The position numbers were made by a program, and so were the translations under genes. 64,000 bases of DNA from Acidobacteriota bacterium. Lineage in GTDB: Bacteria > Acidobacteriota > Polarisedimenticolia > J045. The first letter of the stretch is position 1. Every line of letters starts with the position of its first letter. A model generated the notes under the pieces. The model searched no databases. It saw only the letters and a program-made list of their open reading frames with translations, and was not told where the DNA came from. Positions 4,411 to 27,270 of the stretch are shown here, one piece after another. Location of the stretch: NCBI GenBank assembly GCA_030949985.1, contig JAUZRX010000028.1, positions 1 to 64,000 of the forward strand, read 5' to 3'.

Positions 4411-4542
4411 ATTTCGATACGCGGGAAGGTGTTTCACGCTGGCACAAGGCGGCCGCCGTCACCATATTGACTCCAGGAGGTCCGCACCGATTCGCCACGC
4501 TCTGCCACCCGGCACCCGGGAAGGACGCCAGGAGTGGAACCC

Positions 4543-5955
4543 ATGAGCGCGATCCTCACCCCGCCCCAGCCGTCCTCTCCGAGCGCGCGGGAAACCACCG
4601 CACGGATCCTCGTGGTGGACGACGAGCCGAACATCTGCCGCCTGCTGGCCCATAACCTGGGCCGGGCCGGCTACACCGTCTCCACCGCCGGCAGCGGGGG
4701 ACAAGCCATCGAGACCTTCGAGAAAAGCGGCGCGGATCTCGTCCTGCTGGACCTGAAACTGCCCGACATGGCGGGTCTCGAGGTGTTGCGCCACCTCCGT
4801 CGCATCGATCGCGATCTGCCGGTGATCGTTCTCACCGCCCATGGATCGGTGGACACGGCCGTGGAGGCGATGAAACTCGGCGCCCACGACTTCCTCGCCA
4901 AGCCCTTCGAGTTGGAGCGCCTCGAAATCGCGCTGCGCAATGGGCTCGAAATCCGTCACCTGGCCCGGGAAGTCCGGCGGCTGCGGTGCCGCCTTGCCGC
5001 CACGGAACGCTTCTCCGAGATCATCGGCGCCGAAGGTGGCCTCCGAGAATGCCTGGCCCTGGTGGAGAAAGTGCTTCCCAGCGATCTGACCGTTCTTCTC
5101 ACCGGTGCCTCCGGTACCGGCAAGGATCTCTTCGCCCGGGTGATCCACGCCGAGGGCCCCCGCTCGAACGGCCCCTTCCTGCCGGTCAATTGCGCGGCTC
5201 TACCTGAAGGACTGCTGGAAAGCGAACTCTTCGGGCATGAAAAGGGAGCCTTCACCGGCGCCACCAGCCGGCACATCGGAAAATTCGAGCAGGCAGACGG
5301 GGGCACCCTCTTCCTCGACGAGATCGCCGACATGGCTCCCGCGGTGCAGGCCAAGCTGCTCCGGGTGCTCCAGGACCGGACGGTGTTCCGCCTCGGCGGC
5401 AACACGGCGATCCGGGTGGATGTGCGGGTGATCTGCGCGACCCACCAGGATCTCGAGCGCGCGGTGGCGGAAGGACGATTTCGGGAGGACCTCTACTACC
5501 GCCTGGCGGTCTTTCCGGTCCACATCCCGCCCCTGCGGGACCGCAAGGAAGACATTCCCGCGCTGGTCGACCACGTCATCGCCCGCGCGGGCAAAGCCCC
5601 GACCCAGGGCATCTCCGCCGCAGCCCTCGAATGCCTCGAGAGCCACGACTGGCCGGGCAACGTCCGTGAACTGCAGAACGTGATTCGGCGGGCGCTGGTC
5701 CTCGCCGGCGGGGAGACGATTCTCCCCGAGCACCTGCCCCCCGGGATCGGCGGCGCCCGGTCCCTCACCGCGGGACGCTCTTCCCTGCCGCCGGCCCTCT
5801 CCGGAGAGAGCATCGCTCCCCTCGAGGAAGTCGAGCGCCAGCACGTGCGGCGAGCGGTGGAGGCCTGCCGGGGCAATCTCAGCCAGGCGGCGCGACGACT
5901 GGGCATCGGCCGCACCACCCTCTATCGCAAGCTCAAGCGCTTCGGTCTCGGCTGA
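4543..5955 (+). CDS. NtrC-family sigma-54 response regulator
   Basis: A 470-aa regulator with a complete receiver: acidic pair Asp26-Asp27, phospho-acceptor Asp70, Thr98 and Lys120. The AAA+ domain has Walker A GASGTGKD at 188-195, GAFTGA at 235-240 and Walker B GTLFLDEIAD. A Fis-type HTH at the C-terminus ends in RTTLYRKLKRFGL. ATG 4543 is preferred to the upstream GTG at 4534 because AGGAG at 4530-4534 is correctly spaced for it. It pairs with the divergent PAS kinase. Its 3' end overlaps the convergent alr gene by 23 bp. The targets and stimulus are not shown by the sequence. Confidence 0.92.
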   Translation: MSAILTPPQPSSPSARETTARILVVDDEPNICRLLAHNLGRAGYTVSTAGSGGQAIETFEKSGADLVLLDLKLPDMAGLEVLRHLRRIDRDLPVIVLTAHGSVDTAVEAMKLGAHDFLAKPFELERLEIALRNGLEIRHLAREVRRLRCRLAATERFSEIIGAEGGLRECLALVEKVLPSDLTVLLTGASGTGKDLFARVIHAEGPRSNGPFLPVNCAALPEGLLESELFGHEKGAFTGATSRHIGKFEQADGGTLFLDEIADMAPAVQAKLLRVLQDRTVFRLGGNTAIRVDVRVICATHQDLERAVAEGRFREDLYYRLAVFPVHIPPLRDRKEDIPALVDHVIARAGKAPTQGISAAALECLESHDWPGNVRELQNVIRRALVLAGGETILPEHLPPGIGGARSLTAGRSSLPPALSGESIAPLEEVERQHVRRAVEACRGNLSQAARRLGIGRTTLYRKLKRFGLG

Positions 5956-7111
5956 CGGCGATCCGGGGCAAGGAGGGGTGGATGCGGGAGACGATCTCGT
6001 AGTGGATCGTCCCGGCCCAGCCCGCCAGATCCTCCGCACGGATCCGCTCCCCTCCCGACGCACCGATCAGGACCACCTCGTCTCCGGCCTGTACCGGCCC
6101 GGCGTCGGTGACATCGATCATGAACATGTTCATGCATACCCGACCGACCACCGGAGCCCGGCTTCCATGACACAACACGTGGGCCCGACCCGAAAGGGAG
6201 CGGTCGTAGCCCTCGTAGTAGCCCACGGGCACGACGGCGATCCGGCTCTCCCGGCCCGCGCGCCACGACCGCCCGTAACCGACCCAGGCGCCCCGTGGCA
6301 CCACCTTCACCTGGGCGATGGCGGCCTTCCAGCTCAGCACGGGTTCGAGTTGGAAATCGGCCAGGCTTCGCTCCCGGGCCGAGACCAGGGTTTCCCGGGA
6401 AGGCCACAGACCGTAGAGGGCGATGCCCACACGCGCCATGTCCAGATGGGTTTCGGGAAACAGGATCGCCGCCGCCGAACAGGCCACGTGGCGCAGCGGC
6501 GTCGACGATGGATGGAGCGCACGGACCTGCTCGGAGCAGGACAGGAAAGTCTCCAACTGCCGACGGGCGAAGTCGTGATCGGTGGTGTCTTCGATGTCCG
6601 CGAAGTGGGTCGAGATCCCGGCCAGGCGGAGGCTTTCACGACCCGCGACATGGCGCGCCAGGTCGAGCAACGCCTCGCCGGCCAGGCCTTGCCGGTGGGT
6701 TCCCGTCTCGACCTTCAGGTGCACCCGGGCCACCCTCCCCAACCGCCGCGCCGCCACGGCCAGGGCCTCGGCGGCGGCCCGGTCGTAGAGAGTCAGCTCG
6801 AGGCCGGCTTCCACCGCCGGGGGGCAATCGCCGGGGGGCACGCGGCCGAGCACGACGATGGGAACGTCCCGCCCCACCAGCCTCCGCAATGCGACCCCCT
6901 CGGCCAGGTTGATCACCGCCAGCACGTCGGCGCCGGCCTCGAGAGCCGCCGGCGCCACCAGCTCCACCCCGTGACCGTAGGCGTTGGCCTTGACCACCGC
7001 CGCCAGGCGAGTGCCGCGCCCCAACCGGCTGCGAAACGCCCCCAGGTTGCGCCGGAGAGCGTCCAGGTCGATCTCCACCCAGGAGACCGCGCCGGCAGGC
7101 AGGCCCCTCAC
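5933..7111 (-). CDS. alr: Alanine racemase
   Basis: Interconverts L- and D-alanine for peptidoglycan. This is a PLP fold-type III enzyme of 392 aa, normal length. The PLP lysine is Lys41 in VVKANAYGHG and the opposite-face catalytic Tyr is Tyr279 in WVGYGRSW. It starts with GTG at 7111 and overlaps the stop of the upstream membrane-protein gene by four bases (GTGA), implying translational coupling. Its 3' end overlaps the convergent response-regulator gene. Confidence 0.93.
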   Translation of the reverse strand: MRGLPAGAVSWVEIDLDALRRNLGAFRSRLGRGTRLAAVVKANAYGHGVELVAPAALEAGADVLAVINLAEGVALRRLVGRDVPIVVLGRVPPGDCPPAVEAGLELTLYDRAAAEALAVAARRLGRVARVHLKVETGTHRQGLAGEALLDLARHVAGRESLRLAGISTHFADIEDTTDHDFARRQLETFLSCSEQVRALHPSSTPLRHVACSAAAILFPETHLDMARVGIALYGLWPSRETLVSARERSLADFQLEPVLSWKAAIAQVKVVPRGAWVGYGRSWRAGRESRIAVVPVGYYEGYDRSLSGRAHVLCHGSRAPVVGRVCMNMFMIDVTDAGPVQAGDEVVLIGASGGERIRAEDLAGWAGTIHYEIVSRIHPSLPRIAVSRDRSA

Positions 7112-8712
7112 CGACGCACTCCGGGGCGGGAGACGATCAGCGGCGCCGAGTAGTGCACCTTGAGCCCCTTCCTCCCGGCCCAGGCACGGACCTCGCTCAC
7201 CGGCGCGGGAGAGGCGAAGATCCAGTAGCGCCAGCGCTCGCGGATCGGCAATTCCAGGCAGTGCACCATCACCCCATCCCGGGCCCAGGGCATCAAGCTC
7301 CGAGGCACCTGGTTGGGGGCGTAAGGCCGGTCATAGAGAAACTGGTTGAAGATATCGCAGAACATCACCCGGCGGCGCACCACGTCGTCCCAGGTGGCAT
7401 GCCGCTGGTGGAAGAGCACGCTCTGCTTCTGGAACGGCCGGGTGGCGATCTCGGGGTCGTTCAGCCCGAAGGGGTCGAAGTGCCACGCACCCGTCACCCA
7501 GGGCAGAGCCCCGGCCCAGCCGATGCAGATCCGGTCAGTGGGACCCAGGTAGGGCGCCAGCAAGCGGCCTTCCCGCAGCATCTCGTCCGCCGAGTGCTTG
7601 AGTGAGCGCCACGAGACCGTCGGGAAGAACTCCTGGAAGGGCCTGAAGGTGGGCACGGCGAAGGCGGCCGCCACGACCCACGCCCCCACGGCGAATAGCC
7701 GACGACGCCCGGCCTCCGCGGGCGCCAGGCGGTCGAGGGAGAAGGCCGCCAGCAGGGCCAGACCGGGCAGCAGCATGTCGAAAAAACGAAACTCCCAGGC
7801 GCCCCCGCCCTCCACCGCGACCCAGGTCGTCCAGAACAGAGCCTGGGCCAGCAGGGCGGGCACCAGGAGCGGCAGGCGGCGGCGAGCCCACCACACCCCC
7901 GCCACGATCAACGGCAGCCAGATCCAGGCGAAGTTCTGCGCCAGGAATTGCCCCACGTAAGTCAGGCCCAGCGAAAGCTGCACCCCGCCCACCTTGGCGT
8001 AGAAGGTGTTGGGCAGGGGCTTGCCGAACAGCGCCATACGCCAGCCGCAGAGTCCGAGGAGCCAGGCGCCGTGGACCAGGCCGGACAGCGCGATCCTCTT
8101 GAGCGAGTCCCTGCCGCCGGCCGCCACGGCCAGGCCCGCTCCCGCGGCGAGATGCAGCAGGGGCACTTCCGGACGAAAGACCGTGGCGAGGAAAAACAGC
8201 AGGCCGCTGATCCAGGCCCGACGCCCGGGATCCTCGATCTCCAGCGCCAGGCGCGCGGTGGCCACGAGCACCAGCAGGGTGGCGGCCCGGGTCTCGAGAC
8301 CGGCCACCGCCCACACCAGCCACTGGCGCCCGAGAGCGAGCACCAAAGGCGCGGCGAGGGCCCGCAGGGGAGACAGTCCGAGCCGATCCCGGGCGACGCG
8401 CCAACTGACCACCATCGCGGCCGCCCCGGCGAGGATCCCCAGGAAATGGGTAAACCCCACCGGGTCGAGACCGACGACCATCCCCAAAGCGGCGAGCAGC
8501 ATCCAGCCCAGGGAAGTGCTGCCCTCCACCGGCACACCGTCCACCGTGTTCCAGGCGATCCCCGCACCCTCCACCAGGTTGCGGGAGTAGCGGAAGGTGA
8601 TGAAGGTGTCGTCGTTGTACCAGCGCTGGCTGTAGGCCTGCACGCTGAACGCGGCGATCAGCACGGCGAGAAAAAGAAACGCGCCTCGGACCGGGGAGGA
8701 CTCCGCACCCAT
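7108..8712 (-). CDS. GT-C-type polytopic membrane glycosyltransferase, specificity unknown
   Basis: A 534-aa integral membrane protein with about ten hydrophobic segments. The acidic motif YNDDTFITFRY lies in the first periplasmic loop (residues about 32-42), characteristic of GT-C polyprenyl-phosphate-sugar-dependent transferases (PMT and AftB-like proteins carry such DD motifs). The soluble C-terminal part (from about 390) is periplasmic by analogy. It sits between purQ and alr with 4-5 bp spacing, so it is cotranscribed, but that context does not reveal the acceptor. Cell-envelope glycan or protein glycosylation is likely. Confidence 0.7.
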   Translation of the reverse strand: MGAESSPVRGAFLFLAVLIAAFSVQAYSQRWYNDDTFITFRYSRNLVEGAGIAWNTVDGVPVEGSTSLGWMLLAALGMVVGLDPVGFTHFLGILAGAAAMVVSWRVARDRLGLSPLRALAAPLVLALGRQWLVWAVAGLETRAATLLVLVATARLALEIEDPGRRAWISGLLFFLATVFRPEVPLLHLAAGAGLAVAAGGRDSLKRIALSGLVHGAWLLGLCGWRMALFGKPLPNTFYAKVGGVQLSLGLTYVGQFLAQNFAWIWLPLIVAGVWWARRRLPLLVPALLAQALFWTTWVAVEGGGAWEFRFFDMLLPGLALLAAFSLDRLAPAEAGRRRLFAVGAWVVAAAFAVPTFRPFQEFFPTVSWRSLKHSADEMLREGRLLAPYLGPTDRICIGWAGALPWVTGAWHFDPFGLNDPEIATRPFQKQSVLFHQRHATWDDVVRRRVMFCDIFNQFLYDRPYAPNQVPRSLMPWARDGVMVHCLELPIRERWRYWIFASPAPVSEVRAWAGRKGLKVHYSAPLIVSRPGVRR

Positions 8713-8716
8713 GGAC

Positions 8717-9541
8717 CTACACCAGCTCCCGGGCGGCGTCGAGGCCCGAGCGGAACAGGGCCAGTCCCGCCGGCTCCCGGGTTTCGGGAGCCGGCTGTCG
8801 GCGCCAGTCGGGATGGTGCCAGGGATGCAGGAAAGCGTCGGGATGAGGCATCAGGCCGAAAACCCTTCCCGAGTGATCACAGATCCCGGCGATTCCGCCC
8901 GTCGAGCCGTTGGGGTTCCACGGCCACCGCTCCGTGGGCCGGCCCGCCTCGTCCACGTAGCGCACCGCCACCCGGCCGTCCTCGGCAAGACGCCGGACCA
9001 GGCCGGCGGGCTCGGTGAGAAACTTGCCCTCGCCGTGGCGGGCGGGCAGTTCGAATGAATCCATCCCCCGGGTCCAAAGGCAGCGCGTGCCCGGCTCGAC
9101 CCGCAGGCGCACCCAGGCGTTACGGTAGCCGAGACGATCGTTGGGCCCCAGGTCCGCCCGCTGCACGAAATCGTGGGCTCCCTCCTCGGGCCCCGGCAGC
9201 AGGCCCAGGCGCACGAGGGTCTGAAAACCATTGCAGATCCCGATGGCCAGCCCCCCCCTTTCGAGGAAGCGCCGCAAGTCGTCTTCGAGGTGCGCTCTCA
9301 GGCGCGTGGCGAGCACCAGGCCGCCCGCCACGTGGTCACCGTAGGAGAATCCTCCGATGAAGGCGATCACGTGGTAATCGGCCAGGGGCCGCGGCCCCCG
9401 GTGAGCGAAGAGGTCGGTCAGGTGCACCCTGTCGGGCTCCACGCCGAGGGAACGAAAGGCGTGGGCCGTCTCCGCCTCGCAGTTGAGCCCCAGCCCGACG
9501 GGAATCAGCACCCTCAGGCCCGCGTTGTCGCCCGCGCCCAT
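8717..9541 (-). CDS. purQ: Phosphoribosylformylglycinamidine synthase, glutaminase subunit PurQ
   Basis: Supplies ammonia from glutamine to PurL in purine synthesis. This is a 274-aa class I glutamine amidotransferase with the nucleophile Cys103 in GICNGFQ and the His-containing MPHPDAF near the C-terminus. It follows purL directly (purL stop TAG at 9542-9544, purQ ATG at 9541). It is somewhat longer than the roughly 230 aa of Bacillus-type PurQ and similar to the PurQ that accompanies PurSL fusions. Confidence 0.93.
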   Translation of the reverse strand: MGAGDNAGLRVLIPVGLGLNCEAETAHAFRSLGVEPDRVHLTDLFAHRGPRPLADYHVIAFIGGFSYGDHVAGGLVLATRLRAHLEDDLRRFLERGGLAIGICNGFQTLVRLGLLPGPEEGAHDFVQRADLGPNDRLGYRNAWVRLRVEPGTRCLWTRGMDSFELPARHGEGKFLTEPAGLVRRLAEDGRVAVRYVDEAGRPTERWPWNPNGSTGGIAGICDHSGRVFGLMPHPDAFLHPWHHPDWRRQPAPETREPAGLALFRSGLDAARELV

Positions 9542-19655: not shown

Positions 19656-20923
19656 CAACCTCCGCCGGGGGGGCCGGTGAATGCGACACCGGACCAGGGA
19701 TCGTCGTCGAGGACTTCCACGCCGCCGGCCGGGGAGGCCCGCAGGTCGATATCGATCTCCACGTTGCGCCCACTTTGCCGCAGGGTCCACCGGGCGACGG
19801 TCTCCTGGGCCTGGTCGAGCCAATCCACGACCGCGTCGACGAATTCGGCGACATCCCGGCCGCTGTCCCAAGCCGTCAGAACGCGCAGTCGTTGGCGGGG
19901 AGCCTCCCCCCCGGGCCGTCCCCCGGCCACCGCTTCGAGCAGTTCGACCCGGTCGCCGTCCCAGCCCGCCGCGGCTCTCGTGGCCCAAGCACGGTCCAGG
20001 CGGGTACCGAGCCACGCGCCGATACCCAACTCGCCGAGTTGCAGGACCCCGGCCCGTCGCCAGCCGTCGGGCGGGGGCGGCATGGCAGGCTCGCCGGGAA
20101 GCTCTCCGCGGCGATCGGCGTGAAGCAACTGCTCGGTGGACAGGGGAGGCTCGCGCCACAAGGCGTTGACCGCCTCCCAGCCGCCCCGCCTCCAGGCCCC
20201 GGCCACCAGCCGGGTGCCGAGACGGTAGGGCTCGAGCAACAGCGTGCGGACCCACGCCGGGGCCCGATCCAGCGCGGAAGCTCCCCCGGCGGTCGGCTCG
20301 TCCAGGCCCCGCAGGAAGCTCTCCACGTCGGGATCGCCGCTCGCGGCCGTGGCCAGGAGCATGGTCAGCACCGCGTCTCCCTCGGCCAGGGCCAACCACG
20401 CGAGTTGCCGGTCTTCCCGGCCGGGACGGTCGAAGGCCGCTCGGCGCCGTTCGAAGCCGAAGTGCTGATCGATCAGCGCGTGATCGTATTCGTGGATCCA
20501 TACGGTGCGCGGGTGGGGGCCGCCCGTCGCGACGTGACCGCCGAAGATCACCATCACACCCCGCTCCCCGTCGTAGAGGCCCAGGGCCTGCCGGCGCAGG
20601 ATCTTTTCCAGCTCGCCGCGCAGGTCGTAGCCGCCTGGGAGGAGTTGCAGACCTTCGAGAATGCGCGCCTGGCTCCGCGCCACGTCATCGGGAAGCTCGC
20701 GGGCGACCAGCCGGGCCAGCAGCGCCCGCCCCTCGTCGCCCGCGGGAGTCTCCACGGGAACCTGGCGCAAGAAAGGCAGACCCCGGACCTTTTCCACCTC
20801 GCTCATGACCCGGGCCAGGTCCTGTCCACGCTCGCTTGCAGCACGGCCGTAAGGGCCCGGCGGCAGGATCGCGACCAGCGTCAACAGGCCCAACACCCAC
20901 GGCAGACCCACTGCTCGCGTCAC
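19655..20923 (-). CDS. Putative secreted zinc-metalloprotease-like protein (HEXXH), family unknown
   Basis: A 422-aa protein. Residues 7-20 are hydrophobic (LPWVLGLLTLVAIL), a likely signal peptide or anchor. The motif HEYDH at 144-148 in VWIHEYDHALIDQHF fits HEXXH, and an EGDA at 181-184, about 33 residues later, could supply the third zinc ligand as in gluzincins. No named peptidase family could be assigned. GTG 20923 overlaps the cvpA stop by four bases, and its stop overlaps the namZ ATG, so the three genes are translationally coupled. Protease activity is a motif-based inference. Confidence 0.65.
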   Translation of the reverse strand: MTRAVGLPWVLGLLTLVAILPPGPYGRAASERGQDLARVMSEVEKVRGLPFLRQVPVETPAGDEGRALLARLVARELPDDVARSQARILEGLQLLPGGYDLRGELEKILRRQALGLYDGERGVMVIFGGHVATGGPHPRTVWIHEYDHALIDQHFGFERRRAAFDRPGREDRQLAWLALAEGDAVLTMLLATAASGDPDVESFLRGLDEPTAGGASALDRAPAWVRTLLLEPYRLGTRLVAGAWRRGGWEAVNALWREPPLSTEQLLHADRRGELPGEPAMPPPPDGWRRAGVLQLGELGIGAWLGTRLDRAWATRAAAGWDGDRVELLEAVAGGRPGGEAPRQRLRVLTAWDSGRDVAEFVDAVVDWLDQAQETVARWTLRQSGRNVEIDIDLRASPAGGVEVLDDDPWSGVAFTGPPGGG

Positions 20924-21501
20924 GACGGATGTCGCTCCCGCCCGCCACGCCGGCGGCTTTCCATCGACGCCGGGGGCAGCACCTCCCGCCGCCGCTCCTC
21001 GAGAGCGCGGCGACGCTCGTAGTAGAGCCGGGCCACGTCCGGCGGCAGGATTCGCGCCGCCAGGTCGCTGACGGTGATGGCATAGGGCAGAAGCACCGAC
21101 TCTCCCAGCACCGCCGAACCCGGCGGCAGGAAGGCCGTCAGTCCCACCAGCAGACCGCAGATGCCCAGGCAGCCCCCCGCCAGGCCCACTGTGGCCCCCA
21201 CCAGCCGATCGACCCAGCCCAGCTCGGCCGAGGCCACCAGTTTGCGAGCCAACCAGGCCGCCAGCCCCGTCAGCAGCAAACCGCACACCAGCACCAGGAC
21301 GAAGGCCACGACCCGTGCGATCTGGCCGGAGGCGAAGACCCCCGCGAACCACTGGGGTCCGCGAGCCGCCAGTCGCAGGGCCAGGGCCAAAGAGACCCCG
21401 AGTCCCGCCATGCCGATGGCGATCCTCACAAAGCCTTTCCACAGCCCGTAGACCGAACAAACCGCGAGAATCACCGCCATGCCGATATCGAGACCGCTCA
21501 T
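20920..21501 (-). CDS. cvpA: CvpA family membrane protein
   Basis: A 193-aa protein with four hydrophobic segments in the first roughly 150 residues, starting MSGLDIGMAVILAVCSVYGLWKG. This matches the CvpA layout (colicin V production family, short N-terminal DxxI/L start followed by a G-rich first helix and FVR). The C-terminus is a charged Arg/Glu tail. CvpA proteins are linked to envelope homeostasis. Here cvpA leads the coupled trio cvpA-HEXXH protein-namZ, which supports an envelope or peptidoglycan theme. Confidence 0.8.
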   Translation of the reverse strand: MSGLDIGMAVILAVCSVYGLWKGFVRIAIGMAGLGVSLALALRLAARGPQWFAGVFASGQIARVVAFVLVLVCGLLLTGLAAWLARKLVASAELGWVDRLVGATVGLAGGCLGICGLLVGLTAFLPPGSAVLGESVLLPYAITVSDLAARILPPDVARLYYERRRALEERRREVLPPASMESRRRGGRERHPS

Positions 21502-21753: not shown

Positions 21754-22842
21754 TCAGAAGCGCAGGGTGTAGGTGCTCTCCGGAGGCGTGGTGATGAAGA
21801 GGAAGATGGGCTGCCCCTCCTTGACGTAGTCCAGGCGCTCGGGCTCGGTACGCAGGGTGACCTCGGCCTTCTGCTCGACGGTGATCTTGTCGGGCAACCG
21901 GCGGTCACAGCTCGGCGGCACCTTCACCTTGTAGGTTCCATACTGCAACCCCACCAGGTTCTTGACCGGCAAACCGTTGAGATAGAGTTCCGGCGTGCAG
22001 GGCCCCTCCTCGTTGGCGAAAGCGAAGGAGAAGGTATTGGGGTTGAGCACGATGGGGTCGGGAACGCCGCCCTGCCGCAGGTAGAACTCCAGCGGCTCGA
22101 CGCCCGTACCCTTGGCCGTCGCCCGGTAACGTCCCGGCGGCAAGACCACGCGAAACTCCTCGAGACCCGCCTTGACCCGCTCGGCGAACCGTTCCTGGGC
22201 CAGTTCGAAGGAGGCCTGGGAGAAGGCATCGTTGCGGCCCCCGATGCGCTCGAGGGTCATGCCCTCGAGCTGGCCGGGGCTGAACTCCCGAACCCGGAAA
22301 CGGGTCACCACACCGGCCGACCAGAAATGCTTGAGATCCTCCACGGCCTCCCGCGGGCTGGCCATCTGGAAAACCACCTCGCTGACACCGGAGAGCAGGC
22401 CCGGACGGCCGGAACGCTCGATGTCCACGTCCCAGTCCGCCGGATCATAGCCCAGCAGATCGAGGACCTTCTCGTACTGCACGATGGAACCTTCCAGGTC
22501 GACGCCCCGGGCATGCAGCAGCGCGGCCTGGAAGTGCGCCTTGGCCACGGTCTTGGTGATCTCTCCGAGAATGCGGCGATCTTCGACGAAGAGTTTGTCC
22601 GTCGCGTAGCGGCCGTCGATCTCTTCGACGTAGTGCTCCACGTCGTAGAGCGCGGCATCCACCATTTCCTTGGTCACGCCCTCACCTTGCAGGAGGGTGT
22701 GATAGGAAGTGATGGCGCGGTAGATGTTCTGAATCTGCTCCAGCTCCCGCTCGGGGGAGGTCTCGGCCAGCACCGGGGCGAGCGGCACCAGCACGAGGAC
22801 GAGGGGCAACAGGGCGCGAAGGGTCGTCTCGATCTTCTTCAT
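21754..22842 (-). CDS. Secreted protein of unknown function in Exb-like operon
   Basis: A 362-aa protein with a clear signal peptide (MKKIETTLRALLPLVLVLVP, cleavage near AETSP). The N-terminal half is helical and repeat-like; the C-terminal half looks like two beta-rich carbohydrate- or PEGA-like modules (LPPGRYRATAKGTG and YGTYKVKVPPSC) containing two cysteines. No family recognised. It is the last gene of the six-gene operon, one base after the TPR gene, so it is presumably a periplasmic or outer-membrane partner of that system. Confidence 0.75.
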   Translation of the reverse strand: MKKIETTLRALLPLVLVLVPLAPVLAETSPERELEQIQNIYRAITSYHTLLQGEGVTKEMVDAALYDVEHYVEEIDGRYATDKLFVEDRRILGEITKTVAKAHFQAALLHARGVDLEGSIVQYEKVLDLLGYDPADWDVDIERSGRPGLLSGVSEVVFQMASPREAVEDLKHFWSAGVVTRFRVREFSPGQLEGMTLERIGGRNDAFSQASFELAQERFAERVKAGLEEFRVVLPPGRYRATAKGTGVEPLEFYLRQGGVPDPIVLNPNTFSFAFANEEGPCTPELYLNGLPVKNLVGLQYGTYKVKVPPSCDRRLPDKITVEQKAEVTLRTEPERLDYVKEGQPIFLFITTPPESTYTLRF

Positions 22843-22843
22843 T

Positions 22844-24133
22844 TCAGCTCCCCTGGCCTTCCGCTTCGATGTCCTTGGCCTTCTGACTCAGGCCGAACTG
22901 GCGAAGGATGTTGGCGTAGTTCTGACGGAAGGGCTGGAGTTCGGCTCCGGTGTACTTCTTGCGGGCCTTGTCGTAGGCCTTCTCCGCATGGATCAGGGCC
23001 TGGATCTTGTCACCGAAGTTGGCCTGCGCCCGGCTCAGGTCGAAGTAGGCCACCTCGTCCCCGTCCCACTCGAACGAGGTCGCCTCGGATGCGGTCTTCA
23101 GCGCGTCCTCGTAGCGCCCCTGGTTGTAGTGGGCGTAGGAGATCACGTGCAAACTGGTGCCGTACTGCACCTGGATGTCCGGGTTTCTAGGATCGAGCTT
23201 GAAGGCCAGGCGCCCGTACTCCACCGCCTTGAGCTTGAAGGCGTGGCCGTCCTGGCGACTGGCGTAGTCCGCCATTTGCCGGTAGATCTCCGCCCGCTGC
23301 GGATAGCCCCGCGTCGCCTGGGCGGCCTCGGCAAAGACCTCCATCACCTCCTTCGGATCCGAGCCGTCACTGTTCATCAGGTCGAGGCCGATCTGCCACA
23401 ACACACCGGCCCGCACGTTGCCCTCGTCGAAGCCCACCACCTGGTAGAGCTGGGCGAAACGGTCGTCGTACTTGGTGCCGAAACCGAGTCGACAGGCCTC
23501 CCGTACGCGGACGAGGTAGATATCGGGCACTTCCGAGTGACGAGCCATTTCGAAGGCGCGATTGATATAGAGCAGGACGTACTTGGCGAAAGCCGTGTAT
23601 TCCTCGCTGTCGCGATCCTTGTCGGCCAGTTCCTCGGCGCGGGCCAGCAGGGCCTTGTACATGTGCCAGTTGGCCGCGTTCTCCAGTTCCAGGTTGCGGA
23701 ACTGCTCATGTTTGAGCTTCTCGTAGTAGGCCGTCCCCAGCACGTTGTGCTTGAAGAAGGGGTCGTCCTGCAAAATGCGGAGGGAGCTGAGCATGGCCCC
23801 GAGCACATCCCGATCGAAGTCGTACTTGAAGCTGTCGGGATCGGCCTTCCACAACTCGAAGCGCGAATGACCGCCGATGAAGGAAACCAGGGCGAAATCC
23901 GCGCCCGCACGGGGCAGACCGGCCCCGTCGAGAGTCGAAAAATAGTTGTCCGCGGCGTCCGCGGCCGCCTGCCAGTCGCGGGCGTTGTAGGCCGCCACGG
24001 CGGCAGTGCGAATCGATTCGAGATTCGCCACCACGCTCTCCTGGGCCAGCAGGGGACCGGAGAACAGGAGACCCACCAGCAGCAGCGAGAGAGCGGCCGC
24101 GAGAAGAGGTCGACGGTTTGTTCTGACTATCAC
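22844..24133 (-). CDS. Periplasmic TPR-repeat protein in Exb-like operon
   Basis: A 429-aa protein with a signal peptide (hydrophobic residues 9-29, LAQES at the likely cleavage site). The mature protein is all-helical with tetratricopeptide-like units, the clearest around 280-420 (AVEYGRLAFKLDPRNPDIQVQYG, HYNQGRYEDALKTASEA). It starts with GTG and overlaps the TonB-like gene by four bases. TPR proteins with ExbB/ExbD/TonB sets occur in bacterial operons for envelope energy transduction; the substrate here is unknown. Confidence 0.78.
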   Translation of the reverse strand: MIVRTNRRPLLAAALSLLLVGLLFSGPLLAQESVVANLESIRTAAVAAYNARDWQAAADAADNYFSTLDGAGLPRAGADFALVSFIGGHSRFELWKADPDSFKYDFDRDVLGAMLSSLRILQDDPFFKHNVLGTAYYEKLKHEQFRNLELENAANWHMYKALLARAEELADKDRDSEEYTAFAKYVLLYINRAFEMARHSEVPDIYLVRVREACRLGFGTKYDDRFAQLYQVVGFDEGNVRAGVLWQIGLDLMNSDGSDPKEVMEVFAEAAQATRGYPQRAEIYRQMADYASRQDGHAFKLKAVEYGRLAFKLDPRNPDIQVQYGTSLHVISYAHYNQGRYEDALKTASEATSFEWDGDEVAYFDLSRAQANFGDKIQALIHAEKAYDKARKKYTGAELQPFRQNYANILRQFGLSQKAKDIEAEGQGS

Positions 24134-25503
24134 GATGCACCTCGGAGGTATTGGGTCAGGGCGGGCAACGCCTGTTCCGCTTCCTGAACCTTCGAAACCA
24201 CTTCCCGGGAACCCTTTGTCCGGGCGACAAAGATGTTCGCCAGCCCGTCTTCCGTGGGGACGAGAACGTGGACGATGCCGTCGCGGTAACGAATGATGAA
24301 GGCATTACCATCGCGAGTCACCGAAACCACCTTCCCTCCCGGACCACCTTGCCAGTCACCCTTGCCCCTTCCCTGCCGCAGCAGGTCACTGATCTGGGGC
24401 AGGAGCATGTTCCACCGCGCCGCCTCCGTGGAACGCTGCCCGAGGCTGTTGACCGACACCAGCGGCAGCCCGTACTTCCGGGCCAGCGCCGAGCGGACCG
24501 CCTCGAGCTTTCCTGCCGCAGCCGAGCGCTCCCGGGGGCCGGTGTTCGCCCCAACTGCCACATCGGCCGGAGCCGCCGAATACTTGAGCCCCGGTGTCCC
24601 GCCGCTGGTCGCCGCGAGCTGTGGCGCAGCGCCCCGGCGGCTGGCCTTTTTGGGGCTGGCCACGGCCACCTCGGGAGCATGGCCCGGGTTGGCGTCATAG
24701 ACCACGCGGGTCCCCGTCACCGCGCCGGAAATCGCCACGGGGGCCGACCGCGAGGGCCGCGCAGTATTGCCCCGGGGTACGTCCACGGCGGGCGCATCCG
24801 CCGCCTGGGTCACCGCCAGACCGGTCCGCAACTGCTGGGAAACCGGCTGCAGCGAAGGCCGGTCGCTCGCGCGAGCCGAAGGCCGGGGCGTGACGACCTC
24901 GACGTCCGGAGCCAGCGTGTCGTGGAACGATTCCCGGGTCGCCGCGGCCACCTGGATCTCCGCCGCCCGCGCCTGCCGCGGCACCGCCTGGGGGACGGTC
25001 ACTTCCACCTGCTGGTCCAACGGCTTGAGTTCCACCGGCCGGGTATCCACGACCACCTTCGTGGGACGAGGCGCGTCGACCTTCTCCCGCGGAGTTTCGA
25101 TGGCCGGCGTCTCGAGCTGCCGATTGAAGACCTCCCGGGTCTGCTGGGCCTGGAGTTCGAGACGCTTTTCCACCTCGCGCGGCTTGGGAATCTCGATCTC
25201 GGGCACCTCGAGCTGGGGCTCGAGTTCGACGATTTCCTGCACCTTCGGCGGTGGTTCCTCCTGGCGCGGCTGCGGCTTGGGCTTGGGCTTGGGCCTCGGC
25301 GGCAGGGGCGGGGGGGGAGGAAGGGTCTCGGGCGGCAAACGTACGATGGTCACCGGCCGCGGCTGGGGCTCGGCGGGCTTTTCCGGATGGCGGCGCAACT
25401 GGACCCAGTCCGGCGGAATCAGCAGCAGGGCCGTCACCACCGCCAGGCAGATGCTCATGTAGCGGTAGAAACGGTCCCGGGAAAGCTGCGCTCGCGGTGT
25501 CAT
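24130..25503 (-). CDS. TonB-like Pro-rich energy-transducing protein
   Basis: A 457-aa protein: a short cytoplasmic N-terminus, one membrane helix at about 16-29, then a long Pro/Lys/Glu-rich periplasm-spanning region (PPPPPLPPRPKPKPKPQPR). The C-terminal domain (about 330-457) does not show the usual TonB C-terminal signature. It instead has KVVSVTRDGNAFIIRYRDG and a helical end. The layout implies coupling of inner-membrane ExbB/ExbD motion to an envelope target. ATG 25503 overlaps the exbD stop (ATGA). Confidence 0.75.
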   Translation of the reverse strand: MTPRAQLSRDRFYRYMSICLAVVTALLLIPPDWVQLRRHPEKPAEPQPRPVTIVRLPPETLPPPPPLPPRPKPKPKPQPRQEEPPPKVQEIVELEPQLEVPEIEIPKPREVEKRLELQAQQTREVFNRQLETPAIETPREKVDAPRPTKVVVDTRPVELKPLDQQVEVTVPQAVPRQARAAEIQVAAATRESFHDTLAPDVEVVTPRPSARASDRPSLQPVSQQLRTGLAVTQAADAPAVDVPRGNTARPSRSAPVAISGAVTGTRVVYDANPGHAPEVAVASPKKASRRGAAPQLAATSGGTPGLKYSAAPADVAVGANTGPRERSAAAGKLEAVRSALARKYGLPLVSVNSLGQRSTEAARWNMLLPQISDLLRQGRGKGDWQGGPGGKVVSVTRDGNAFIIRYRDGIVHVLVPTEDGLANIFVARTKGSREVVSKVQEAEQALPALTQYLRGAS

Positions 25504-25982
25504 CGGCTGGCCACTCTCGCTTCCTCGAAGATGACCTGGGGCGTCACCCCCCGGTCGAGGCAGGCCATGATCACATTGAGCGTCGCTCCCGCATAGGACT
25601 CTTTGTCGGTGGTGACGAAAACGTCCACTCCCTCGAGCGCCTTCTCGAGCGGCAGGCCGGGTTTGTGCTCGGCCAGCCAGCCCTCGATGGCATCCCCTAC
25701 CAGCCGGTAGGCTTCCACCGAGTTCGGGTCACCGACGTCGATCTCCTTGTGATCGAGGGCGATTCGGGAGTCATGGTAGATGGTGATGTCGAGTCGCTCC
25801 CGGGTCTGGGGGCTGGTGGCCACAGCCTTGTCCGGATCGCGGGTGGGCAGGGCGAGCTTCTCCCGTACGGTCTTGTCGAAGGAGGACGCCACGAGGAAGA
25901 AAATGATCAGCAGGAAGACGACGTCGACCGCCCCCTCGAAACCGTCCTCAAGGTCGAAACTGTACCGGCTCGAGCCTCTCAC
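25500..25982 (-). CDS. exbD: ExbD/TolR family proton-channel subunit
   Basis: A 160-aa protein with a single N-terminal membrane helix (about residues 17-35). Asp20, at the start of the helix in GAVDVVFLLIIFFLVASSF, is at the place of the conserved proton-carrying Asp. The periplasmic domain follows. GTG 25982 has GAGGAGG upstream. It works with the ExbB-like protein encoded just before it (10-bp gap) as a proton-motive-force motor. It is longer than E. coli ExbD (about 141 aa), with an extra loop around residues 60-110. Confidence 0.88.
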   Translation of the reverse strand: MRGSSRYSFDLEDGFEGAVDVVFLLIIFFLVASSFDKTVREKLALPTRDPDKAVATSPQTRERLDITIYHDSRIALDHKEIDVGDPNSVEAYRLVGDAIEGWLAEHKPGLPLEKALEGVDVFVTTDKESYAGATLNVIMACLDRGVTPQVIFEEARVASR

Positions 25983-25992
25983 GGCAGCCTCC

Positions 25993-26739
25993 TCAGCGCT
26001 CGATCAGGCGCTGATAGGCCACGGTGAGCTGATCTTCCCGACGGCCGATGCTGTGCACCACGGCCGTCTTCAGCAACATGGCGATGGTCTTGATCGTCAG
26101 GCCGATCACCGTGGTGATCAACGCGATCTGGATCGACATGGCGAGATCCGCCGGCGTCACCGTGTCCTGAATCGAGATCTCGTAGAACGCAGCGACCATG
26201 CCCACCGCCGTACCGAGAAAGCCCATCGCGGGAGAGAGTACCGAGGCCAGCGAAAAGTACATCATGTTCCGCTTGACCCGCTCGAACTCCTCGTCCTGGA
26301 GGGCCTGCCACACCTTTCCCGGGCGCGGGGCGGCGAAACCGTTTTCATGGAGAAAACGGCGGAAGACCTGTCCGAACAGGGTCGTGTCCTTGTCCAGCAA
26401 TCCACGCACCTCGGCCATCCGCTCGTCGGCGCTCTTGCCGGGGGCATGGATCGCCTGGGACATCTTGCGCGCCGCCTCGGCGTCGTACATGAACGCATCC
26501 CGCAGCTCGAAGAGGTAGTAGTGGACGAACACGCCCAAGGTCAACGAAAGCAGCACGGCGAAAGAAAACATGATCACCGCGTTGACCGGCACCACGTACT
26601 GGGTCAGGACCCGCGCCAGCAGGTCGATCATGTTTTCGCCGCGAATGAAGGCTATGCCCAGCAGGGTCAGGGCGCTGAGCATGACCGCGAGAATGAATAC
26701 AGTCCGCGCGCTCCCCTTCTGCTTGTAAGAACGATCCAT
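25993..26739 (-). CDS. exbB: MotA/TolQ/ExbB family proton-channel protein
   Basis: A 248-aa protein with three or four membrane helices: about 12-30, 45-75, and the family-defining pair around 165-190 (SVLSPAMGFLGTAVGMVAAF) and 205-225 (SIQIALITTVIGLTIKTIAML). The GFLGTAVGM and ALITTVIGL segments are the MotA/TolQ/ExbB domain. It forms the stator-like complex with the ExbD-type protein. It is second in the operon, 70 bp after the small secreted protein gene. Confidence 0.9.
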   Translation of the reverse strand: MDRSYKQKGSARTVFILAVMLSALTLLGIAFIRGENMIDLLARVLTQYVVPVNAVIMFSFAVLLSLTLGVFVHYYLFELRDAFMYDAEAARKMSQAIHAPGKSADERMAEVRGLLDKDTTLFGQVFRRFLHENGFAAPRPGKVWQALQDEEFERVKRNMMYFSLASVLSPAMGFLGTAVGMVAAFYEISIQDTVTPADLAMSIQIALITTVIGLTIKTIAMLLKTAVVHSIGRREDQLTVAYQRLIER

Positions 26740-26808
26740 TGCATCACCCCTTCCCTGGTGAGTGAATTCCCGGTGATTCCGACGCAGCTCTGCCTGGCTT
26801 GCCGGGCG

Positions 26809-27270
26809 CTACTCGGCGGCGGCCCGGGAAACCGTCTTGATGATCGTGATTCGATGCAGGTCCGACAACCGACCGTCGGCACTCAACGCCCGGACGTCCA
26901 GGTCGTTGGCTCCCAGCCGCGGCAGGCCCGCGTCCGGCACCTCGAAATAGGTGCGGAAAGGCGCGTCGGAGGCGCCCGGCGGGACCTTCTGCAGCTTGAC
27001 CAGGTCCTTCGGCTCGGCGGGCCGAATCATGGCCACCCGCTCGCCGACGGTGACCCGGTCGATGGGAGCACGGGAGAAGACCACCCCGGTGAGGGTGATG
27101 AACTCCGCGTCGACGACCGGCGAGATCTCGTGAAACGCCACGATCGGCCGGAACATCGAGGTATCGAAGAGCGGCTTCTTGTTCTCTTCGACGGGTGACT
27201 GACCGCCGAGGGCGGCCAGCGGAACGATGGCCACCGCGACGATGGCCAGAAGGATCGACAGGACTCGCAC
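26809..27270 (-). CDS. Secreted protein of unknown function heading the Exb-like operon
   Basis: A 153-aa protein, signal peptide MRVLSILLAIVAVAIVPLAALG, then a beta-rich domain with VDAEFITLTGVVFSRAPIDRVTVGE, reminiscent of bacterial Ig-like folds. No family recognised. The start is GTG 27270 with GAGGAGA upstream. It is the first gene of the operon leading to exbB, so it may be a periplasmic accessory of that system. Confidence 0.65.
   Translation of the reverse strand: MRVLSILLAIVAVAIVPLAALGGQSPVEENKKPLFDTSMFRPIVAFHEISPVVDAEFITLTGVVFSRAPIDRVTVGERVAMIRPAEPKDLVKLQKVPPGASDAPFRTYFEVPDAGLPRLGANDLDVRALSADGRLSDLHRITIIKTVSRAAAE

Follow-up and report, generated by a model that had tools for sequence, protein, structure and literature searches.

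It is unsettled how force passes from ExbB-type motors to a transducer, a question raised here by a six-gene operon of an Acidobacteriota bacterium (GTDB lineage Bacteria; Acidobacteriota; Polarisedimenticolia; J045). The window, the whole stretch of DNA that was analysed, comprises 64,000 nucleotides (assembly GCA_030949985.1, contig JAUZRX010000028.1, positions 1 to 64,000). We labelled the genes A to F in order of transcription: B and C encode an ExbB-like and an ExbD-like motor protein, D a TonB-like transducer, E a tetratricopeptide repeat (TPR) protein, and A and F two further putatively exported proteins (Table 1). Hereafter, G numbers denote sampled genomes (the window's genome is G000), a C number denotes a contig (the window's is C28), and L numbers denote fetched loci. 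The favoured reading, which we consider fairly probable, is that A–F constitute a lineage-specific force transducer of the ExbBD/TolQR motor superfamily, driven by the proton motive force and acting on a periplasmic A/E/F complex. A sequence-only reading of the operon had suggested a distinct envelope energy-transduction machine with all parts tied to the ExbB/ExbD motor. The first suggestion is favoured by the sequence comparisons, as the operon appears to be neither Tol-Pal nor TtpBCD; the second proved too strong, since relatives carry A, E and F without B/C, at some loci together with D.

Motor Proteins B and C

Both motor proteins matched Pfam families above the curated cut-offs, B to MotA_ExbB (58.1 vs. 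22.9 bits) and C to ExbD (34.7 vs. 25.4 bits); their NCBIfam matches all fell below cut-off. The two pore threonines were kept in all 11 B proteins aligned with E. coli ExbB and TolQ, and the transmembrane (TM) aspartate was kept in 12 of 12 C proteins, including that of G343. Judged by these residues and matches, B and C are members of the ExbB/TolQ-ExbD/TolR 5:2 motor superfamily. B showed four hydrophobic segments in each of ten rows, where the same threshold gave three for TolQ and two for ExbB; compared with TolQ, the additional segment is N-terminal. MotA likewise has four hydrophobic segments in all. Membership of a Zorya defence system was considered and dropped, with only B weakly matching the ZorA model (E = 0.003) and nothing else at E ≤ 0.01.

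Transducer D and Its Tip

D consists of a short N-terminus, one TM segment, a proline-flanked alternating segment, a proline-rich linker and a globular end. The TM segment exceeded the threshold in six of seven aligned rows, the seventh scoring 1.58 vs. 1.6. Just after it lies the alternating segment, RPVTIVRLP in the window, whose likeness to a D-box was judged by eye against the D-box described in the excerpt of PMC10907165. The linker holds 20–23 prolines in 73 residues in all seven rows.

D had been described as TonB-like without a recognisable TonB C-terminal domain, and this was borne out: no Pfam or NCBIfam family matched at E ≤ 1. Structure prediction of the C-terminus, which had been suggested as a check, yielded a confidently modelled alpha-alpha-beta4-alpha domain with no clear PDB match. 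Specifically, the model of the 128-residue tip, built from seven sequences, reached a pLDDT of 91.6 and a pTM of 0.86, with predicted helices at 2–15, 29–48 and 109–126 and strands at 63–69, 72–77, 81–87 and 93–99. Foldseek gave no match at E ≤ 0.001 and VIA none at Z ≥ 5 among 999 chains, neither of which proves a new fold. The best VIA match was a polo-box domain (Z 4.9, root-mean-square deviation 4.1 over 74 residues); TonB chains were absent among the 50 VIA matches listed, which excludes nothing. An hhalign comparison of the tip with two TonB_C domains of this genome gave 0.6%, with shallow profiles on which to judge. The D profile found one match among solved structures, at E = 0.75.

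Loss of the Proposed Coupling Residues

In E. coli, TonB Ser16 and His20 touch ExbB Ser34 and Trp38, and Trp38 touches Pro190; the SHLS histidine together with ExbB Ser34, Trp38 and Pro190 is a proposed signal path (both from the excerpt of PMC12215075). A TM histidine was missing from all ten D proteins encoded beside B/C, the window's included (in G343, only C is adjacent, as the contig ends). It was present in all five D proteins without adjacent B/C, four of which carried SxxxH and one AxxxH; the D of G193 contained the full S-x3-H-x6-L-x3-S. This correlation is one of plain counts, with few independent events behind it.

The motor side showed a corresponding change. Equivalents of Ser34, Trp38, Pro190, Asn196 and Arg200 were gone from 11 of 11 B proteins in the alignment with E. 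coli ExbB and TolQ. Serine, tryptophan and proline were all kept in the Tol-type ExbB at C23 and in one ExbB each of G185 and G223, two genomes that lack B/C.

Occurrence in Relatives

A sample of 396 genomes of the phylum was searched with profiles of F and of the D C-terminal domain, and 41 genomes of the class were searched with E. The F and D profiles each matched 14 genomes, 13 of them in common, and E matched those same 13. Of the 12 members of the window's family in the sample, 11 are among them, as are two of eight from one sister family; G247, a member of the window's family that is 84% complete, gave no match to D, E or F. Two matches were set aside, that of F in G326 (located in a carboxyl-transferase open reading frame) and that of the D C-terminal domain in G320 (E = 0.0052). 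E had no match among plasmids.

The suggested gene-neighbourhood search showed that the TPR and secreted genes do recur beside ExbB/ExbD in relatives, though the motor is optional. Scanning genome contigs with B returned eight loci, all from Acidobacteria/Acidobacteriota. A–F stood in identical order at five (L006, L007, L008, L009 and L011), and L005 agreed up to the contig end, which falls inside F. L012 was A-B-C-E-F without D, and the contig of L010 ends inside D. Judged by coordinates, several of these loci lie on contigs of the sampled genomes (for example, L005 on G231:C23 and L010 on G215:C231) and are not independent of them. The B subfamily gave a strong match in eight of the 13 genomes and is confined to part of one family; in a ninth genome, G343, C lies at a contig end. 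The remaining four lack B/C and carry A or an A-like part directly before D or E: A-D-E-F in G185, A-D-E-F and A-E-F in G223, [TPR+A]-D-E-F in G208, and, in G193, D at a contig end preceded by an A-like frame, with E-F on a separate contig. Each of these four holds two to five other MotA_ExbB proteins.

CNNM lay upstream at eight of the 21 loci examined, and CvpA-like and NamZ genes lay downstream at five of them in addition to the window, many of the 21 ending too early to tell. Since both flanks were present at ABCDEF (L008, L011), AEF (L052, G223) and ADEF (L054, G185) loci, different motor contents occupy one chromosomal place. Judged from the outgroup without B/C, the evidence leans towards a gain of B/C rather than a loss. 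The window's genome also holds a second set, A-B-C-E-F without D (L001, G000:C25:80500-92500, 4486-8741), so that a single D stands against two sets of motor and E/F genes. The tree of E joins the ABCEF copies to a copy of G215 that has D (97/99), suggesting that D was lost from the former; eight of 15 inner branches were open and the deeper branches were poorly supported.

A further D gene, with S-x3-H in its TM segment, was observed at G223:C86 (L092 8354-9634); the surrounding 20 kb that were fetched contain no A, E or F. An ExbB-type gene with a weak match to B lies ~9.6 kb away, and the neighbours looked RelA-, RidA- and STAS-like by eye.

Putatively Exported Proteins A, E and F

An N-terminal hydrophobic segment of signal-peptide type was found in every aligned row of A (10), E (9) and F (8). 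The export prediction rests on these segments, and some A and F start codons are uncertain. A and F matched no Pfam family at E ≤ 1, E gave only sub-threshold Pfam TPR matches (best 1.2e-4), and none of the three had an NCBIfam match at E ≤ 1. Against solved structures, the A profile found nothing, and the matches of the E profile were confined to designed TPR-type chains and their fusions. A longer frame before D has the A-like part as its C-terminal portion in the sister family (L051 9093-10898; L093 4587-6440); the one in L051 carries TPR repeats by Pfam.

In the F model (pLDDT 80.1), helices at 30–130 are accompanied by an alpha/beta part and by a beta-rich end whose confidence is low near the C-terminus. 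Foldseek gave no match for F at E ≤ 0.001. VIA returned mostly helical or TPR chains over residues 24–177, with Z up to 11.6 for a designed protein; this fold search barely covers the C-terminal half.

Gene Layout and Neighbourhood

The six-gene operon was confirmed: all six open reading frames were recovered on the minus strand at the coordinates of Table 1, and their order recurs in relatives. Overlapping frames had also been reported, and overlaps were seen at two of five junctions (C/D and D/E, both −4 nt); the other three are merely close (A/B +69, B/C +10, E/F +1 nt). The ratio of non-synonymous to synonymous substitution rates was 0.03–0.12 for A–E against L005 and 0.08–0.26 for A–F against L006.

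Table 1. Positions of the operon genes and of selected features within the window.
Feature	Position	Strand	Description
Gene A	26809..27270	-	153 aa; N-terminal hydrophobic segment of signal-peptide type; immunoglobulin-like by eye
Gene B	25993..26739	-	248 aa; ExbB/MotA-like, four hydrophobic segments; Pfam MotA_ExbB 9.6e-16
Gene C	25500..25982	-	160 aa; ExbD-like; Pfam ExbD 2.1e-8
Gene D	24130..25503	-	457 aa; TonB-like transducer
Gene E	22844..24133	-	429 aa; TPR protein; N-terminal hydrophobic segment of signal-peptide type
Gene F	21754..22842	-	362 aa; N-terminal hydrophobic segment of signal-peptide type
Gene F, modelled layout			TPR-like helices, alpha/beta middle, beta-rich C-terminus (structure model)
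B Thr177	26209..26211	-	Equivalent of ExbB Thr148 / TolQ Thr145, proton path
B Thr210	26110..26112	-	Equivalent of ExbB Thr181 / TolQ Thr178
C Asp20	25923..25925	-	Equivalent of the essential ExbD/TolR transmembrane Asp
D transmembrane segment	25402..25458	-	Residues 16–34, without SHLS histidine
D-box-like segment of D	25333..25359	-	Residues 49–57, between TM segment and Pro-rich linker; by-eye comparison
D C-terminal domain	24133..24516	-	Residues 330–457, modelled alpha-alpha-beta4-alpha

In the window, the operon is flanked by CNNM upstream and by a CvpA-like gene, a 426 aa frame and NamZ (an exo-N-acetylmuramidase) downstream. The 426 aa frame (19658-20935) is Pfam-negative and has relatives in the same place in L052, L054 and L058. 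Judging by the CvpA-like and NamZ neighbours, an envelope or wall task is plausible. The sequence-only reading had noted no adjacent TonB-dependent receptor gene, and none of the seven plug-domain matches of the genome lies on C28, although a receptor on the contig is not a strict requirement of a Ton system.

Comparison with Known Systems

The window operon stands apart from the other sets of this genome and comes in addition to them. C23 carries TolQ, TolR, TolA with TonB_2, TolB and Pal, and C81 (L004, G000:C81:55500-62500) carries a Vibrio-TonB2-type set of receptor, DUF3450, TtpC-like, ExbB, ExbD, TonB_C and TPR proteins. ExbB-like, ExbD-like and TonB_C proteins are encoded at C21, ExbB and ExbD with a TonB_C match nearby at C24, and a MotA_ExbB match followed by an OmpA-domain match at C27. 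Six TonB_C matches were found elsewhere in the genome; at G000:C60:17370-20049 (L102), two TonB_C domains lie in long open frames (720 and 793 codons), with a start-to-start distance of ~2.4 kb.

With a complete Tol-Pal and a TtpBCD-type set elsewhere in the genome, the window operon is neither. Membership of Tol-Pal was dropped for want of TolB and Pal among A–F (Pfam) or the flanks, and membership of Vibrio TtpBCD for want of DUF3450 and a second ExbB-type protein among A–F. The match to Tol-Pal that had been named beforehand as evidence against a distinct machine was thus not found. As to gliding motors (Agl/Glt, GldLM), A, D, E and F had no NCBIfam match at E ≤ 1 that would point to a Glt or Gld protein; the search did not extend to gliding genes outside the operon.

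The operon shares with E. coli TonB-ExbB-ExbD the threonine pair, the ExbD aspartate, a proline-rich transducer with one TM segment and a strand-like segment after it. It differs in that D lacks the TonB_C tip and the SHLS histidine, B lacks Ser34, Trp38 and Pro190 and has an extra N-terminal hydrophobic segment, and no receptor is on the contig. Like Vibrio TonB2/TonB3 (TtpB, TtpC, ExbB2, ExbD2, TonB2, TtpD), it has six genes including ExbB, ExbD, a transducer and a TPR protein, with another accessory protein encoded first; unlike them, it has no DUF3450, no TonB_C match and one ExbB-type protein instead of two. Tol-Pal (TolQRAB-Pal-CpoB) similarly combines a motor pair, a transducer and an exported TPR protein, but the operon lacks TolB and Pal and its transducer tip differs.

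Also close are the vWA force transducers described by Williams-Jones et al. (2025). As described in the excerpt of PMC12204202, these have a TonB/TolA layout with a tip of another fold, lie near a TolQR-like motor and TPR genes, and are of unknown function. D resembles them in its TM segment, disordered proline-rich linker, globular non-TonB tip, and nearby motor and TPR genes. In the same excerpt the tip is vWA and many members keep SHLS, whereas the D tip is modelled as alpha-alpha-beta4-alpha, D lacks the TM histidine where B/C are adjacent, and A and F come in addition. D had no Pfam match to vWA and its modelled order is H H E E E E H, although the fold listing cannot exclude vWA. As vWA-type transducers are already in print, a tip that is neither TonB nor TolA is of a known kind. 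The D tip, the A/E/F set, the paired loss of coupling residues and a function for the operon were undescribed in the titles and abstract starts of openly licensed PubMed Central literature, among the matches listed.

Proposed Mechanism and Alternatives

The force-transducer reading draws on gene order, conservation, motor residues, residue changes, the layout of D and D/E/F co-occurrence, all taken from sequence, and on a modelled tip domain; export, complex formation, force, contacts and target are what we infer. It is favoured because the pore threonines and aspartate are kept in B and C, D has a TonB-like layout, and D, E and F co-occur, a second D being present away from A, E and F in G223, whose AEF locus lacks one. 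It is also favoured because the residue changes in D and B pair with motor presence, those residues belonging to one contact network in E. coli (excerpt of PMC12215075), and because there is precedent for TonB-layout transducers with another tip beside motor and TPR genes (excerpt of PMC12204202).

B and C would form an inner-membrane motor using the proton gradient, with D anchored beside it through its single TM helix. The D-box-like strand of D may dock on the periplasmic domain of C, and the proline-rich linker would take D across the periplasm, where its C-terminal domain would grip a partner. Most probably, this partner is the putatively exported A/E/F set: D would pull through its tip on E and/or F, which would serve as its receptors, with A as an accessory, and the pull would be relayed by the set to the outer membrane or wall. 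A/D/E/F would thus be a conserved output module and B/C an optional dedicated motor. Where B/C are present, D and B would have dropped the SHLS-His/Ser-Trp-Pro contact, presumably for another interface; where they are absent, D keeps the histidine and would probably borrow a Tol/Ton-type motor.

Several points weigh against this reading. D has an arginine where the E. coli D-box has a buried methionine, by the same by-eye comparison. Against solved structures, the C profile found only eIF2-gamma chains (E 0.01–0.03) and no ExbD or TolR, which makes C a distant member. The residue losses are not unique to B, as four of the five other aligned ExbB-type proteins of the window's genome also lack Ser34 and/or Trp38: those at C24 and C21 lack Trp38 (that at C21 also Pro190), and the ExbB and TtpC-like proteins at C81 lack both Ser34 and Trp38. 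The C27 protein was left out of this alignment. The correlation between the histidine and B/C may reflect a single evolutionary event. The AEF and ABCEF loci show output genes without an adjacent D and, in the AEF case, without the motor too. Two E/F sets but one D occur in G000 and G231, and likewise in G185 as far as found, the contig of its second set beginning at E.

Three other explanations were weighed. D could be a TonB for receptors encoded elsewhere in a divergent Ton system, with A, E and F as accessories like TtpB and TtpD of Vibrio TonB2. The plug-domain matches in the genome fit this, as does the six-gene TonB2 system of Vibrio vulnificus, which includes a TPR and another accessory protein and is essential for siderophore uptake (excerpt of PMC6957404). 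We nevertheless regard it as improbable, given the missing TonB_C match in D, the low hhalign score of its tip (with the shallow profiles noted), and the TonB_C matches elsewhere, with a full set at C81. E and F scored 0.7% and 0.6% against the TPR and DUF3450 pair of that set, again with shallow profiles. Alternatively, D/E/F might serve peptidoglycan or outer-membrane constriction, forming a second Tol-type or wall-linked machine. The recurrence of CvpA-like and NamZ genes downstream would suit such a role, and E is a TPR protein, like CpoB; synteny with housekeeping genes can be passive, however, and the operon lacks TolB or Pal in a genome with a complete TolQRAB-Pal, so that we give this explanation little credence.

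The loci without a motor (AEF, ADEF and those of the sister family) bear on a different explanation, in which A/E/F would be a periplasmic complex with a non-mechanical job, such as a chaperone or scaffold, and the addition of B/C/D would only signal or gate ions. That the sister family lacks B/C suggests that the motor may be a later gain, as this explanation would have it. It is hard to square with the retention of D in 13 of 13 E-bearing genomes and with motor residues that are invariant wherever the motor is present, and we think it unlikely.

Significance

Beyond the force-transducer reading, a bolder proposal is conceivable, although we hold it with some doubt: that the operon encodes a third kind of trans-envelope force transducer, lineage-specific and distinct from Ton and Tol, in which the tip fold and the periplasmic receptor complex are its own and the contact between motor and transducer has been re-wired. 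A/D/E/F would have come first and a private B/C next, followed by joint loss of the His/Ser-Trp-Pro coupling.

For ExbB-type motors, these loci offer a natural case of kept pore residues with the proposed path missing from both partners, while close relatives without the motor keep the histidine of D. Because motor-bearing loci without the histidine stand beside motor-less relatives with it, the role of this residue can be tested by comparison. With its unfamiliar tip, D extends the short list of transducers other than TonB and TolA, and the operon would be a further case among the few mechanisms known to power work at the bacterial envelope.

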